This document shows, piece by piece, positions 4,996-33,431 of a stretch of DNA of 64,000 nt (its first letter is position 1; each line of letters begins with the position of its first letter). Below the pieces are notes generated by a model. That model worked only from the letters and a program-made list of their open reading frames with translations. It was not told the origin of the DNA and searched no databases. A program made the position numbers and the translations under genes. The stretch comes from Oxytricha trifallax (taxonomy: Eukaryota > Ciliophora > Spirotrichea > Sporadotrichida > Oxytrichidae), in the NCBI GenBank assembly GCA_000711775.1, contig ARYC01000234.1, forward strand, positions 1 to 64,000. The letters run 5' to 3'.

Positions 4996-7900
4996 TCAAT
5001 CTTAATTTTAAGCATTTAGAGAACTTTCTTTATTTCTAATCCACTCATTCATTATAGCATATATGATTTTTATTTTTACACTATAACAAAATTGCATCTA
5101 ATACTGTAATTCTATGAGCTTCTTATTTTCCTCAAGTACCTACATAAAATCACTTAGCATCTATCTGTAAACTGCATCATAGCGATCTAATTGCCTATCA
5201 AAAGCCTCATTTTCCTTAATTAAATTCTAAATCTAATCATTAATGGGCGTTCTCATTTCATTGAGATTATCGAAAACTTATTGCAATTTTATAAGCAGGA
5301 AGTTTTTCAGACTTTCTAAATCTTAATGTGTGGGTGTCATGGAATTATATTGTGATTAAATCTGTATATTTGGGGAGATATTGAAATTAGACCTTTGGGT
5401 ATGTGTGTAATTGCCGTTATCTTATTAGGTTGATTGGAACATAGGACCTGTCTAGTCTATTGATTAACTTAAAATACTTTGTCCTCCTGTGATTTGTGTA
5501 CTGCCCCCAACTACGGAGTTAAAATTAAGTTTTTGATCTTAAAGTTTCTTTTTGACTAGGTCCATAGTCATTTTGAGGCTCTCTTAATTTACCTCAAATA
5601 CTTTCATTTTGTTCTTATAATAGTCTTTATCTTCATCGTATTGCTTTCTAATTGATATCTGCTCTTTTTCGACTTTCTCCTTCATTTTTTTCATTTCAGT
5701 TACTGATTTCTTCAAATACTGATCTTTAAATAAGACAATATAAATAAAAAACAAATTATCTTTTAGTTTTGCATCGTACGTCTCATGTTCATGCAAACGC
5801 TACTGCAGAGTATCATGGCTTTTCAAAAGACTAAGTAGTTTTGAGTGATGCTCTTGTATGAAATGCAAATGTGGTTTGGCTTCTGAATCTGCTTATTTTT
5901 GTTATTCTTGGATGTCTTTTAAGTTTTAAGACATTAAGTAGAGTTCTCGTTTTAAGTTCTCTAGTTCTTTAAACATTAATATAGAGAGTATATTGATAGA
6001 TTTATATCATACAGCATTGCTTCAATTATAAATTAGGAAATCTTAAGTAATCTCTAAACCATTACCAACCTTTGACTAGAACAACTTAACTTTATGTTTC
6101 TTATATGGTGATTGAGATCCCACTATAAAAAGAACATAAAATTGATTGTATTGAACTTACATCTTGAAAAAGTGTTTCTTAGTGATGAAGCATTTGATAC
6201 CATATCATGTGTGATAGTTTAATTCATAGGCGATCTGTCTTTAACGCTTTCTTATCTGCCATGTCCCTTTGTGACTCAAAACCCCAAAACCCCTTAGTGA
6301 GGTTTATAAGTGCTTTGATTAGTAGGGTAAAGTTGGGGTTTTATTAGGGTTAGTAGAGAAAACGGAAGTTTAATGAGACTTTAATATGTATTTAATGAGT
6401 ATTAGTTTAATTATATCACACGAATTTTACTTGCTTGTCTTTGTTGTATCTCTTGAATCTCGCTTTCTTTAGTGGTTCGAGCATATCGTCTAAGGATTGT
6501 CTTGGATATGCTGGAGCTCTTACTATTATCTTCTCTACAATCTTCTTTATTTCTTAGCAATACATCATCTTGTTTTATGTGCTTCTCAGCTAGATTTATT
6601 GATTATTTTTCATATTTTGTATTAATGTAAGTCATGCTTTCCATATCGCACTCTAATATTATTGCAGCTACTGCCCAAACATCCCACTAAATAGAGCCAT
6701 TAGTCCATTTCTCTCTGATTGGGAAGTAACCTGGAGTACCAAGAACCTTTGCTAAGGTTACAATCTCTTATCTTAAGGCTCTATTAAAATCGATTACAAC
6801 TACTTCTAAAGGGCAAAGGTTTAGCATAACATTTTCAGGCTTCAAATCTCTATGAACGTATCCAAGCTCGTGAAGTTCCTAAACACCCTTTATCATATTA
6901 GATAGAATATCATTCAAGTCATCTGGGTATCTGTTTTAATATAGATAATCTCGGAGAGTCATTTCAAACTTTTTTAGCCTTAGTGCGATGAAACCAAACC
7001 CTAAAATAACACCATCTAGCTTGAGCAAATTCTTGCAATCTTTTTTCTAAGCCTCTCTAAGTACAATATATTCGTTAGCAAACTCATTTTGATACTGCTC
7101 GTTTTTAAGGAGATAGCTGAAAGGATATACCTTGTAGGCATAGTCATCAACCACTATGAGTTTTGCTTTAGCAGGTACGTTTATATGTAAGTAGTTTTCA
7201 ATACAACTGCTAAGGTCTACTGCATTTAGTGCAGGAATATACATGGCTCTCTCTTAAAAGCATGCTAAAAAGACATTACCAGCAGGTTGATTCATTAATT
7301 CTATTCGCTTCTGCCTCTTGAGCTTCTCCTGTTGTTCTTTTTAAGTCTCAAGATTATTAGATTTTCTTTTAGCGGGCACTAATTTCTAAGTCTCTTTATC
7401 TTAAATCAAGAACTCACTTAGGTGATGCTTCTGCATATGTTTCTTAACTTTAGCTGAGTGAGTATAAGACTTCTCACAAGTCGTGCACTAGTACCTGCCA
7501 TCGACCTTATCATGCTTAAAATACACCTTAGCTTTCCCAGAGTGAACCTCTTTCATATGTCTCTTCAAACTGGAATCAGTAGAGAAAAAATTTTAGCAGT
7601 CTTAGCATTCAAAAGTTTTAATCCTTTAAATCTGAAGCTGTTCCTTTTCTTCCTCAACATCTTTTATTAATGTTTAAACTTCTATTTCAGCTTTCTGTTT
7701 CATGTTTTAAACCTATATAATAAAAACTTGTGCTTCAAATTCAAGAGCTCTTAGCTCTGCCTCCCTCTCAATATATATAACTTCTTGTTTCTTGGTTGAA
7801 CCAAAGTTAAGCATTGATTGACCTGCTCCTAAAAGTGCCGCTCTACGATTTAAGTTGACCGCCATGTTTAAATTCAAATTTAAATTTCTATTATAAAGCT

Positions 7901-10900
7901 CTTAAAACCTCTATAGCTATAGCTGGACTATATAGGAGTTGCTACAGCATTAATGATGGTTTGATCTCAGCTCTAAGACTTCATATTTATACTCAGTTTA
8001 TAACTATAATTTTTGTAATTTTGCACTTAATAATTTTGATTCTGGTACCAACTCAGATAAAGTTCAGGTTGGTACTGGTACCAATTAAGTTTTGAACCAG
8101 ATTGGAACTTTTCCATTAAAACCTCACTGGATTAAAACTAGGTACTAATTAAGTTTTGGTACTATTAAATTGGTACCAATTAAACTTAAACGAATTTAGT
8201 ACCGGTACTAATTAAATTTAAACAAATTTAGTACTAATTTAATGGAACTAAATTGATAAAAATGGAGCTCCATCTCTGAAGTTTGTTACAGCTTCTGCGA
8301 ACCTTCTCCACGTATCCTTACAGGGTTGACCTCCTATAAGATGCCCATATTTAATAGTAAGATTTAAAGGATAGGATCCAGAAGTCTATAAATTAAAACT
8401 TGAAATTCATTAATAGGAAGAGGAACAAAGATGGAATCATTCAATGAACAAATGAAAAGGGTTGAGGCTCAAGAAATGATATCAAGATTCAGAAGCAAGG
8501 AGGATCTCTATCGATACCTTACTTAGCATGGTAAAATAAATTGATGTTAATCAACGATGTATACAGTTGGTCTATTCCTTCCAACGATGGAAGGTACTAA
8601 AATATCATTCTTAAAAGCAATACTCTGCGAGGAGAAGAAAGCTTTTAAAAAACATAGAAATCAAACTGATTGAAATACCTAACTACCCAGAGATTTCAGT
8701 CACAAATCTCTACGAGGATGCAATGAAAGATGATGAAGTGGTTATTTACCTTCCTAGCAAGAAGTAACTCTCAAATAAATTGCCTGAAAGAAACTTCATC
8801 TTTGGTGTTCTTGGTACAATCAAAGAGGATTATTTGAGAGAAATTATAGAAGAAGCTCATAAGAAACGCTACTCTATTTCTCCTGAAGATTAAAAGAAGC
8901 AAGGAATACTAATAAGCGAGACGTGGCTAGCAGAGCTTAAGAAGCATCCTTATCTCTCTAGTAAGCTTTGATTTATAACTTTTTAGGGAAACCTGGAACT
9001 GGTATATTTCTAATGAAAGAGAATGCAAAGGTTCACAGAGAGAGAAAGTCTCAGACCATTCATTAAGTTAGCAAGAGACTTTATAATGAAGTTTAAAAGT
9101 CTGATGAAATGAACATTGATGCTGGTGCTGGTACAAAGAGAAGAAAAATGGGTCCTAGTAAAGCACCAGAGGAAGAAAAGAAAGAGAAGCCGAATCCATT
9201 TAAGAGTTCGTTTGATATGTGAAATAATTCATTCATTTAAGTCTAACACTTATTAATAAACATTCATTCTTCCTTTCCTTGCACATATCGTAGTCTAGTC
9301 TTTACCCACTCTCTTGCAACTACTCTGTATTAAGTCTACTGTGTCGATTGGTAGATCATGCATTAGGTGATACAGCAAGAGTTTCTTGTAGTGAGTCTTA
9401 ATCTAACTCCAATAGAATTCGATTCCATTAAATTGAGGACTGTAAGGAACGTTATACACAGGAGTTATCTTTAATTCTTCATAAGCTTTCTTAGATTCCT
9501 TAGTCTTATGAACTGAGAGGTTATCAACAAACAGGATGATCTCTTGATCGTTGTACTTATCTCTTAGCTTATGTAAGAACTCTATATACTGCTCTCGCTT
9601 AATAGAGCGAGGATGAATAACATAAGTTTCTAAGCCTGAATCTTCACTGATACCAGCCAAAATTGCGTGAGTGACAACCTTAACCTTTTAGTCATACACT
9701 TCTATATTATCGTACTTCTTGTACCAAGACTTATTAATAAAGGTGTTGAACGTAAACACAGCTTCATCAGCGTGTATGAACTTGATGTTATTATCAACAG
9801 ACCTCTGCATTTAATCATATATATAGTTTAAATTATTACTATAAAATAGCAGAGTAAAGTCAATCACTCTCTTCACTCTATTGACAGTCTTGAAGGCAAT
9901 ACCGTTCCTTCAATAAATATTTGCGATAGTCTATGGTGAGATACGCATGTCAGGAAACTTGCGATGAAACATCACAGCTCGCTAGTCAAGTGGGAAATGT
10001 GCCCAATACTTAAGAGTCTTAGAATCGCAGAGATATTCAATATGGTGCTAAGAGAACTTTTGTTTTCTTACAGGATGTTATCAAGAACCAGAATTGAAAT
10101 GCTAAACAGCTAACAAGCAATGATACCTAACTGTTGAGGCACTCTTGCGCAGGAGCTTAGCTATAGCAGCATAATTCATAACTGGTTTGAGTTAGTCTAA
10201 ATTAATACTCGCACCATACCTAAGCTTAAGCAGTAAATCTAAATATTTCTCATCATAAATAGACCCCAAAATCGCTAATTTCTATTTCTCATTTTGCAAA
10301 CTGGCCTAATTTCTCTACTAACCCTAATAAAACCCCAACTTTACCCTACTAATCAAAGCACTTATAAACCTCACTAAGGGGTTTTGGGGTTTTGACTCTA
10401 TGGCCCTCACTTTTCTCTGAAATTTCTTTTTCAAAGTGAGTCTTTGAACTGTTTTCAATTCTTAAATTACTTTAAAAATGATTAAAAATTTATGAAAATT
10501 TGCTAATTTATTATTTGCTATGTTATAAATAAATTCTTATCTTATTATTACTAAGCTTAATCTTAACTCCAATTGAAGGCTAAATATCTTAATAGTCCTC
10601 AATTTTTCTCGCAGTTTATATTTGCTTCTCTTATTAAGCTTCTTACAAAGAACTTGTGAATATGTCTATTTAATTTTGTAAACCAGGCCTATTGACTGGA
10701 GTTTTCTGTTGGTTTTAGTTTGGATTAATGGGACTCAAGAAACTCTAGTTATCATTGTGTTTGTGATCTCCACTCTATTTCTTTAAGTTAGCTGTAGTTG
10801 AATTTTTAGCAGATCTATCTTAATCAAATGGTTTAGCATGAGATGATGTTTAGTTTTTGTGGTTATTTTATCGCTTTGATTGTTTGCGAGATATCTTGCG

Positions 10901-28748: not shown

Positions 28749-31168
28749 TCAAAAGAATGATTAATCAATACCTCCATATTAAGCAACTTCATTAAAACTT
28801 TAATTCTTAAAATCAACTCCTCTTCTTATCATCTCTTCAATAAATTCTTAATCTTCATCTATGATCAACTTAACTAACTTTTGGCAGTCTTTTTATCTTT
28901 AAGTTCTCTCCATATCTTCTTAATGATCCTCTTTATAAGTAGGCCTGTACTTTCTTTCCCAAAGATGATAAGCAACGGTTTTTGGGGGACTATATAGCGC
29001 ATAGTCTTTCTTGAAGAACTTGTACATTTAGTAAATCTCTTCACCAAAGAACAAGTCGTCAATGAAGTTTTAGTCCTAAGAATTTAAGCTAAAACTATTG
29101 ACAGAGTAGCCACAATCCTAAATCAACTAACCATAAGAGAAACTGAAACCAGCAGCCCAGAAAAGCGATTAGAAAGGTTTCTGAAACATATCTGACTTTT
29201 TAATGACTTTACTACTTAATCTAGGAAGTAAATCTAAAGAGTTGAATTCCTTAAAGCACATAGCTACTGGACCTTAAAGTTCAGATTCTATTTTATTGTA
29301 AGACTCAAAATTCTCAATATTTTAATCATCAATTTTATATGGCCTGGGATAAACTGTTAAAATGCTTTTCTAGGGATTTTAGCATTAACTCAAGTATTTG
29401 ATCAAAAGTTAATCCCAATTTTTCACAAATCTCATATGCGAGTCTATTTGCAGATAATAATTTTCATTTTAGTACATTTATTACACAATTACTCTTGCAT
29501 AATAAGCATTTTTAGCTTCTGTATAGTTTACAGTTTTAACTGTAATTTTAACTCCTTTAGATTAATACGCTTCAATTAACTAAGTTAAATCTATTTAAAT
29601 TTGCTGGTCTAAAGAGTCATCAAGCTTTAGTTAATGAAAAATGCCAAAATGCAAGTTTGATGGATTTTGGAATTCTACGAGCTCTGTCGTCCAGATTATT
29701 CTGGCGAAATGTTGATTTAGGAGGACCTAGGTGATAACAAGACTGGTTTTTTCGGAGTTTTCTACTTCATGACTGCCACGTCACGGAATTTGCCACATCA
29801 ACTCACTCAGATACGTCTACGTCACGACTAAGATTGATGGTTTGATTTTAGTATTAAACAGCGATATGTTAAATTTAATTTGAGATTAATCATTAAACAC
29901 ACACATGGATTTTGACTGTTTTCAATCATATTTTTTACTGTTGGTATCAACTAAGCATCTTATAAAATTAAATTTTATATAGAATTAAATATCTCTATAT
30001 GAGGGTATTCCTATAAAGATTGTCTCTTTTATATATTATTCTGAGCATAAAAAACTCTTTACTTCCTCTTACTATGAATCAATTTCAGTTTTCTTCTACT
30101 CAACTCTATGAGTATGTCTGAACCAAGTTGTTAGAGCGAATCTTTGATAACCCTGAGTAGGTTTGACTTCATGTTCAATCTTTTCACTCTTAAACAATAT
30201 ACATCTACCTATGTGAGGGGTTATATCCACTATCTTATCTTTCAAATACAAGCGAAGTTCTCCAAGTTTTTATTAAATAATTTTCTGACCAAATCTTTAA
30301 TAAATTTAATAAATTTTAAGGAAAAAGTTTGAAGTCTTTGCGAGTTGAGATATTTTGCGATTTTAGTTCAGGATTCAAGTAAATGATTGCTGTTATTTTT
30401 CTTAATCTTTGTCCATCTTGCAAATTGTTTGTGTCTAGTCTAAATGCATCTTTATGCCTCAAATAGTATAAAATATAGTTAAATAAAAGCTATTTAGTAT
30501 TCTCCGCTTCCACTGTACTGAGCAAGCTAAACTTCAAAATCGTCCAACTTCTCATAAGCATTAAGAATAGGATTAAATTTATCTGTTAGTTTTGTCATAA
30601 TCTAAACCAAGCTTCTAAGATGTCCTAAAGATTGTAAGCCTTCTACTTCTTATGTGTTATCATCATTTCTTGTATTTTGTTGATTATCGTCAATAAACTC
30701 TTGAGATTTAATCTTTTTCGCCAGATAAGACAGCCAAATAAACTAATCTCCTCTTACTTTCTTATCTTTCTCGTAGCTCTCACCTTTTCCAAAACCTGAT
30801 TCTTACAGCTTGCCGCTTTAAGCCAATTACACACCTTCTTCTCTGCACTTCAACAAAAACTCATGCATCATTTCATTATCACTTAAGTTCAGAGAATTTT
30901 CCTAAGTTACTAAAGATTTCAAGTCATCAACAATCAAGTAGTCAATTTTATCCTCAATAAGTTATTAAATCTTGTCATCATTCAGTATGTTTTCACTGGG
31001 ATTTAAATCATGAACAGTTACTACTTCTCTCTGGTCTATCATATCTAAGAGCTTAAACTTAGTTTTAGCATCTAGCTTTGTTCCCAAAATTGAAGCTAAT
31101 TGTGCAAAATCAAAAGCTGAAGCATTAGCGGATTTATTTTGAGTTTGCTAAGTTTAATTACTTTCCAT
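28749..31168 (-). CDS. Bifunctional prolyl 4-hydroxylase / Skp1-type GlcNAc-transferase fusion
   Basis: ATG 31166-31168, TGA 28749-28751. The N-terminal half is a 2-oxoglutarate/Fe(II) prolyl hydroxylase of the PhyA/EGLN type: VRGDQFIWL, then EVQLAQYSGSGEYYLRHKDAF (iron-ligand His and Asp), ITAIIYLNPE, GELRLYL, IEHEVKP (third ligand His) and ALTTWF. After a linker (about 30110-30030) the frame enters a PF11397-like glycosyltransferase: ETIFIGIPSYRD, NPSNLHFGIFHQ, YLQIDSHMRF (DxH nucleotide-sugar/metal motif), FWAAGFSFSYG, DDLFFGEE and AYHLWERKYRPTY. These are the first two enzymes of Dictyostelium/Toxoplasma Skp1 modification. IESs at 30470-30500 and 30270-30330 are clear; one junction near 29720-30040 is unresolved. 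No signal peptide, so probably cytosolic. Confidence 0.85.
30270..30330 (-). other. IES in hydroxylase domain, pointer AAGTTT
   Basis: AAGTTT at 30264-30269 and 30325-30330 (AAACTT on coding strand). Removal joins TRKDFKL to GELRLYLKDKIVD, completing the double-stranded beta-helix core. Confidence 0.88.
30470..30500 (-). other. 25 bp-core IES in hydroxylase domain, pointer TAGTAT
   Basis: TAGTAT at 30464-30469 and 30495-30500. Removal gives SGSGEYYLRHKDAFRLD, placing the iron-ligand H-x-D in the proper context. Confidence 0.9.
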
Positions 31169-31304: not shown

Positions 31305-33431
31305 ATCAGCAGTGCAGTTTTTACTACAGCATAATTTCGATTTTAACAAGCCTTTTGGCTGTGCTTTGGTACAACTCATTAAAATTTTAATTTCTAATAT
31401 CTTTAATAGGGCTACTAATAACTGAGCAAGCAAGATGAGCTGTGGTAGAATTGCAAGTACAAAGTAACAAAGAGTTTTCCATCTATAAGATCTTATACTT
31501 CATTGAGTCCAACAAGTGAGAAAAAGCTCGAGGAAATGATGAAAGTTATTGATGAATGGGTTTATGATTCAAATAGTTTCGAGAGATTGGTATTTCAAGT
31601 ATAGTCATACAGTCTTAAAAAAGCACTGTCAAAGTAAGTATATCTACTTTCTTGATTTAGCATATTTAATTTATAATATTCTATAGGGAAGTTGCAAAGA
31701 TATACATGGGCAGGGGAGTTTTTACAGATTACTTCAAGGAATCAACTGAAGTTGTTATTAAAAAGAGCAAAAGTTTCAATTAATGCGAATTTTTACGTTC
31801 AAAAGATAATTAAGCTCCATTCTCATAGTAAGAACAAATTGAAGAGTCGTAGTCTACTTTCGAAAACAACAATAATGAGGATATTGATTAAGAAATGAAA
31901 GATGATTCATAAAGTACTACTGCTTTATAAAAAGAAGAAGAAGGGGTAACGGTGGCACAATCTGATATCAAAATAGAACCAGTTGAAGAATTGAAAAATC
32001 ATATAAAGACTAACAATAATGAAGTGGAATCAAAAACTATGAAGACTGAGAAGGAAACTGCTAATGAGTAACTTCCAATCAAGAAAATGGTTGATGTTGA
32101 AATAGACTATCTCTTCAAGTAAGAATTAGGTTTTAGTAGAGTTATTTAGATGTTGATTGATTGTAAAAAACCAATCATAGGCCATAATATGATGTATGAT
32201 ATGATGTTCACTTACTAATTGTGTATTTCTGATCTGCCCTCTAATTACATAGAATTCTCTCAATATTAATAAATAAATAATATTATATTATTATCTTTTA
32301 CTTTAGGTTCTTAGTTTTAAAGATTAAATTTTATGCAATAATGGCTATCGAGATTTCCATAAACCTATGACACAAAGTCCATTTCTATGAACACCAACAC
32401 CAGTAAACATTCTCAATTCAATTTCCACCAGACTGACTTGAAGACACTCTTCCAAAAATGCTCAACAGATAAGAAACTAAGAAATAACTTGCAAATCACA
32501 CTAGACAAAGAAAAAGATAGTCTCTTTGGATTGTACGAAAATCAAACTAATTGCTAGGAACATGATGCAGGATATGATGCCTATATGACTGGATATGTGT
32601 TTGCATGTATCAGTAAATTCATTGAAATTGGGAAGATACTGGATATGTAGTACGGCAAGAAATCAAGTGAAAATAGCAGTGACATTACAGCAACAGCAGA
32701 CTAAGATACTTAAAATTAATTAGAGAGTAATAAGAGAAAGAAAGCTAGAAAAGGCAAAAAACCTAGAAGCTCTTAAAACAATAATCCAAATGAGTCAGAA
32801 GAAGAGGAGGATGATACAGACGAAGATCTTATGATCATAGATGACATTTACAAACATTAATCCAAATAAAATTAGATATTGCAGTCGATTGATTCACCTA
32901 CTAGACAAATTAAGCATTTTTCTTTGGTGCAGAATAAACCAATTTACTTCACAGATTTGAGAGAATTCCAAAATAAGATAATGATGTGCACTGACTTACC
33001 GAGGTACTTTGCTTTGGATTGTAAGTAAAACACTAAACTTTGCTTATAAATTTGATGCATAGTATAAAAAACTTAATTAGAGCAGTAATATGAAAGGTAG
33101 AAGAGATAAAATGTAATACAGATTGAATTTCAAGAAAATTTCAGTATTTATGAGCTTTCTGAAATATTCAGTGTCTATGGAGATATTAATGTAAGCTACA
33201 AATATTTTAAGTTAAATTTGATCATAAATTGTATTGTAGATTGTAAAAACAACAAAGAACTTGGCATATGTGGAATTTTCTAATGTGGATAATGATATCA
33301 TTAAAACAAACACACTCAAAGAAATTGTAGAAAAAGCTACTGAATAGATTTTAAATAATTACAGGCATATTTTAGTTAAATAAGCTGGCTTTATCACTAC
33401 TTTTGAAAAAGCATAGAGATTTATATCTTGA
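31305..33431 (+). CDS. PARN-like poly(A)-specific ribonuclease, N-terminal segment missing
   Basis: Begins at about 31305 within the family sequence (motif QHNFDFNKPFG) and ends at TGA 33429-33431. The DEDD exonuclease fold is split as in PARN: after an insert rich in charged residues comes KKPIIGHNMMYDMMF (the third catalytic Asp region), LPSNYIEF, FPQTYDTK, and HDAGYDAYMTGY (catalytic His/Asp region). A C-terminal RRM-like segment follows (NLAYVEFSNV). IESs: 31361-31413 (GGCT) and 32261-32311 (TCT). Introns near 31632-31686, 33021-33062 and 33193-33239. The conserved N-terminal block with the first Asp-x-Glu pair is absent upstream, where only AT-rich DNA lies; it must come from another locus or be lost. 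Confidence 0.85.
31361..31413 (+). other. IES in PARN gene, pointer GGCT
   Basis: GGCT at 31357-31360 and 31410-31413 in the same codon phase. Removal joins FDFNKPF to GYQQLSKQDELW. Confidence 0.72.
32261..32311 (+). other. IES in PARN gene, pointer TCT
   Basis: TCT at 32258-32260 and 32309-32311. Removal joins YIEFS to QFQRLNFMQQWL, ahead of the conserved FPQTYDTK motif. The short repeat leaves the edge uncertain by a few bases. Confidence 0.65.

Follow-up and report, generated by a model that had tools for sequence, protein, structure and literature searches.

A germline gene of an oxytrichid ciliate predicted to encode a PhyA-type prolyl 4-hydroxylase fused to a Gnt1-type GlcNAc-transferase

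In a window of 64,000 nucleotides, the whole stretch of DNA analysed here, we found a minus-strand gene, running from 31168 to 28749, that carries the active sites of a prolyl 4-hydroxylase and of a GlcNAc-transferase in one fused reading frame. Our most probable reading (about 0.8 in our estimate) is a germline copy, in an oxytrichid, of a gene that encodes a bifunctional Phgt-type enzyme of the cytosol, most likely acting on Skp1. The PhyA-type domain would use O2, Fe(II) and 2-oxoglutarate to form 4-hydroxyproline, most likely on Skp1, and the Gnt1-type GT60 domain would transfer GlcNAc from UDP-GlcNAc onto that hydroxyproline, whereby the assembly of SCF ubiquitin ligases could respond to oxygen. 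Enzyme activity, the Skp1 target and a hand-over between the domains are what we infer by analogy with the known enzymes.

The presence of a TBE-like transposon, the use of the ciliate code and the pointer-flanked internal eliminated sequences (IESs) indicate that the window is oxytrichid micronuclear DNA, in agreement with the ciliate germline source claimed in an earlier note on this DNA. The transposon (about 6276-10395) has inverted ends of ~80 bp that start with CAAAACCCCAAAACCCC, resembling C4A4 telomeres, and contains on the minus strand an IS630/DDE_3 transposase ORF (9229-9876) and a zinc-finger/kinase-like ORF (6276-8051). The gene next to the fused frame (31430-33055, plus strand) looks by eye like a PARN-type ribonuclease (GHNMMYDMMFTYQ) and has a GTAAGT..TAG intron near 31633-31688, which is unlike the IES ends.

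The raw translation of the fused gene jumps between frames. Reading it with NCBI code 6 (TAA and TAG as Gln), we found five unscrambled germline segments (MDS1 to MDS5), separated by four IESs that are each flanked by direct repeats. Removal of IES1 to IES4 at these repeats leaves 2049 nt, i.e. a single ORF of 682 codons plus stop, from the ATG at 31168 to the TGA at 28751-28749. MDS1 (30496-31168) is a code-6 ORF that holds the start codon, an N-terminal extension and the helical part of the PHD domain with the RGDQFIW motif, and it is followed by IES1 (30465-30495; 31 bp, pointer ATACT, extendable to ATACTA), whose removal restores the frame. MDS2 (30325-30464) runs from YYLRHKDAF to YLNPE...KDFK, and IES2 (30264-30324; 61 bp, pointer AAACTT) separates it from MDS3 (29991-30263), where the two domains join. 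IES3 (29957-29990; 34 bp, pointer AGAT) precedes MDS4 (29905-29956), which encodes AQLIPTVKNMIENSQNP of the transferase and aligns without gaps to prokaryotic GT60 proteins. IES4 (29660-29904; 245 bp, 10-bp pointer CAAAATCCAT) is followed by MDS5 (28749-29659) with the remaining GT60 domain; the ORF holding MDS5 by itself matches PF11397 with E 8e-38. The boundaries were placed from repeats and homology only. None of the four IES lengths is divisible by three, and no clean GT..AG pair bounds them, IES4 excepted. Every excision brings back the alignment to known families, a result not expected from chance repeats.

IES4 starts with GTGTGT, and a GT..AG reading of it is possible and in frame. 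Such an intron would add QFQNP at a position where the GT60 family has no insertion (NPSNLHFGI versus, for example, HPENLHVGI), whereas excision at the 10-bp repeat gives a gap-free alignment to GT60s; we therefore read it as an IES. The conclusion that the domains are fused is independent of this choice. The base composition of IES4 (62% AT, 38% GC) is unusually rich in GC compared with the other three IESs (87%, 87% and 94% AT in IES1 to IES3; 6-13% GC). IES4 might derive from a mobile element that has decayed, although the window contains no second copy of it that is clear or convincing. An insertion of ~13 aa before the GEE motif of the transferase may contain a hidden in-frame IES.

Residues 214-320 of the joined protein match PF13640 (2OG-FeII_Oxy_3) with E 4.7e-16. 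Among solved structures, the hydroxylase part matches 4iw3 (E 5e-11), 6t8m (E 2e-9, the best eukaryotic match, deposited as 'Prolyl 4-hydroxylase subunit alpha'), human PHD2 (E about 1e-4) and 6ey1. We take 6t8m to be the hydroxylase PhyA of Dictyostelium (DdPhyA), 4iw3 the Pseudomonas PPHD and 6ey1 the Trichoplax PHD. Alignment to PPHD and DdPhyA, which also covers MDS1, reveals a complete HxD...HxV...R site, consisting of H228-K-D230, H302-E-V304 and R312. All five residues described as critical in PHD-type hydroxylases (HxD, HxV and K/R; PMC6437050) are thus present in this PHD-related 2OG-Fe(II) oxygenase domain. These matches support the assignment of the N-terminal domain as a putative PHD/PhyA-type prolyl 4-hydroxylase.

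The C-terminal part matches PF11397 (GT60) with E 6.9e-46, the best stretch being residues 414-655. This match comes together with the motifs by which we recognised a Gnt1-type GT60 enzyme, namely YRD (360-362), the DxH motif as DSH (452-454), the distal GEE (585-587) and the H..R pair (H611 and R615), of which the last three lie on MDS5; all are invariant among the prokaryotic GT60 relatives. The predicted class of a Gnt1-type GT60 GlcNAc-transferase is thereby supported. The N-terminal segment opens with MESNQTQQTQNK, and by inspection of the joined sequence no hydrophobic signal anchor is visible.

The fusion itself is carried by a code-6 ORF on the minus strand (30374-29922), which contains the C-terminus of the hydroxylase through ALTTWF (PF13640 E 5e-8) and the transferase opening IFIGIPSYRD. 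From the end of the hydroxylase at TTWF (319) to the start of the transferase at IFIGIP (353), a linker of 33 residues (320-352) runs within MDS3 as a single uninterrupted frame, with no stop and no Met. Codon usage scored 2.9 for these 33 codons alone, against a gene mean of 7.7+-3.3, and the other frames reach 1.1 and 3.5. The in-frame passage from hydroxylase to transferase on one segment, as claimed before, is borne out, and so is the pairing of a PhyA-type with a Gnt1-type domain, since PF13640 and PF11397 match the same protein and both score better on the joined protein than on the separate pieces. The earlier note had also placed all iron ligands on the fusion segment; this holds for H302, which lies on MDS3 with R312 and the transferase start, but H228 and D230 lie on the preceding MDS2. 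At the level of the reading frame we consider the fusion confirmed.

Two separately expressed genes, one for PhyA and one for Gnt1, could in principle lie head to tail here. In Dictyostelium and Toxoplasma the same two activities act in sequence but belong to separate proteins, and oxytrichid macronuclear chromosomes usually carry one gene each. Such an arrangement is nevertheless very improbable, as the hydroxylase end and the transferase start share one uninterrupted segment, with merely 99 nt between the domains, no stop and no in-frame ATG. Downstream of the joint no Met occurs before residue 372, by which point the invariant YRD has already been passed, and a standalone transferase would either lack its first strand and this motif or need a non-ATG start, with no room for untranslated regions. 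Equally improbable is a germline-limited or decayed copy that gives no working macronuclear gene: the gene is known here from germline sequence alone, but after IES removal it retains a full frame from start to stop and all catalytic motifs.

An unlikely, though less remote, alternative keeps the same fused architecture and assigns it a hydroxyproline protein other than Skp1 as substrate. Among PHD relatives, the targets include HIF, EF-Tu or proteins linked to translation (PMC6437050, PMC7864055), but a protist PhyA that is fused to or co-occurs with Gnt1 has been taken as a signature of Skp1 modification (PMC6437050), and Skp1 is the target in Dictyostelium, Toxoplasma and Pythium (PMC7864055, PMC9485057). 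A search of the window for a Skp1 motif gave no match. We favour a Phgt-type enzyme acting on Skp1; as for a hand-over between its domains, the 2019 Pythium study of van der Wel, Gas-Pascual and West reportedly obtained kinetics without evidence for processivity.

No relative turned up when viral and genome contigs were scanned with single proteins, and the matches of a profile scan were prokaryotic or viral GT60s only. Prokaryotic and jumbo-phage GT60 proteins (e.g. ORF334 of Xanthomonas phage XacN1) show about 21-32% pairwise identity and the same YRD, DSH, GEE and H motifs. We found no Skp1-type hydroxylase beside them using tblastn and a small iterated HMM, a weak negative, as the sole oxygenase matches were the two domains that had seeded the HMM. 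Both belong to a 2009-aa ORF of a Rickettsiales MAG (L165:1994-8020), in which several GT60 stretches are followed by two 2OG-Fe(II) oxygenase domains and which also has an AhpC/TSA domain. This fusion, the only exception among these GT60s, is bacterial and has the opposite domain order to the ciliate protein. Three bacterial GT60 genes (L003, L005 and L006) lie next to genes of type VI secretion (tssG, fimbrial, RHS) or to a DUF4255 gene, and two jumbo-phage copies (L001 and L002) precede a ~2.3-kb gene annotated as a carbamoyl transferase in XacN1.

Fusions of PhyA with Gnt1 have already been reported for the oomycete Pythium and for many PhyA genes, according to passages of PMC6437050 and PMC8724618 and the title of van der Wel 2019. 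Pythium Phgt is described as a single polypeptide that likewise unites a hydroxylase of the PhyA type with a GlcNAc-transferase of the Gnt1 type (van der Wel, Gas-Pascual and West 2019, Glycobiology 29:705); we liken the ciliate protein to this oomycete enzyme by these described domains. The ciliate fusion thus adds to a known kind and is no new kind of enzyme. PHD-fold homologues are also found in the ciliate/aconoid B4 clade of PHYb-like proteins, which lack one or more of the HxD, HxV and K/R residues (PMC6437050), whereas the fused oxytrichid protein keeps all of them. Moreover, its catalytic domain begins near residue 73, and the ~72 residues upstream could not, as judged by length only, accommodate the 120-aa D2 domain that directly precedes the catalytic domain in PHYb (clade B) but not in PhyA (clade A). 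A catalytically complete ciliate hydroxylase would be a modest extension, and Table S2 of PMC6437050 may already list such genes.

We tentatively suggest, with more doubt than confidence, that stichotrichs keep a complete fused O2-dependent Skp1 hydroxylase/GlcNAc-transferase although the described ciliate B4 homologues lack active-site residues; the fusion could stem from an alveolate-stramenopile ancestor or have arisen independently, and its target is possibly other than Skp1. Overall, a ciliate would join the protists whose Skp1 pathway of oxygen sensing begins with a fused step, and its hydroxylase, catalytically complete by its motifs, may be compared with the degenerate ones of the B4 clade.
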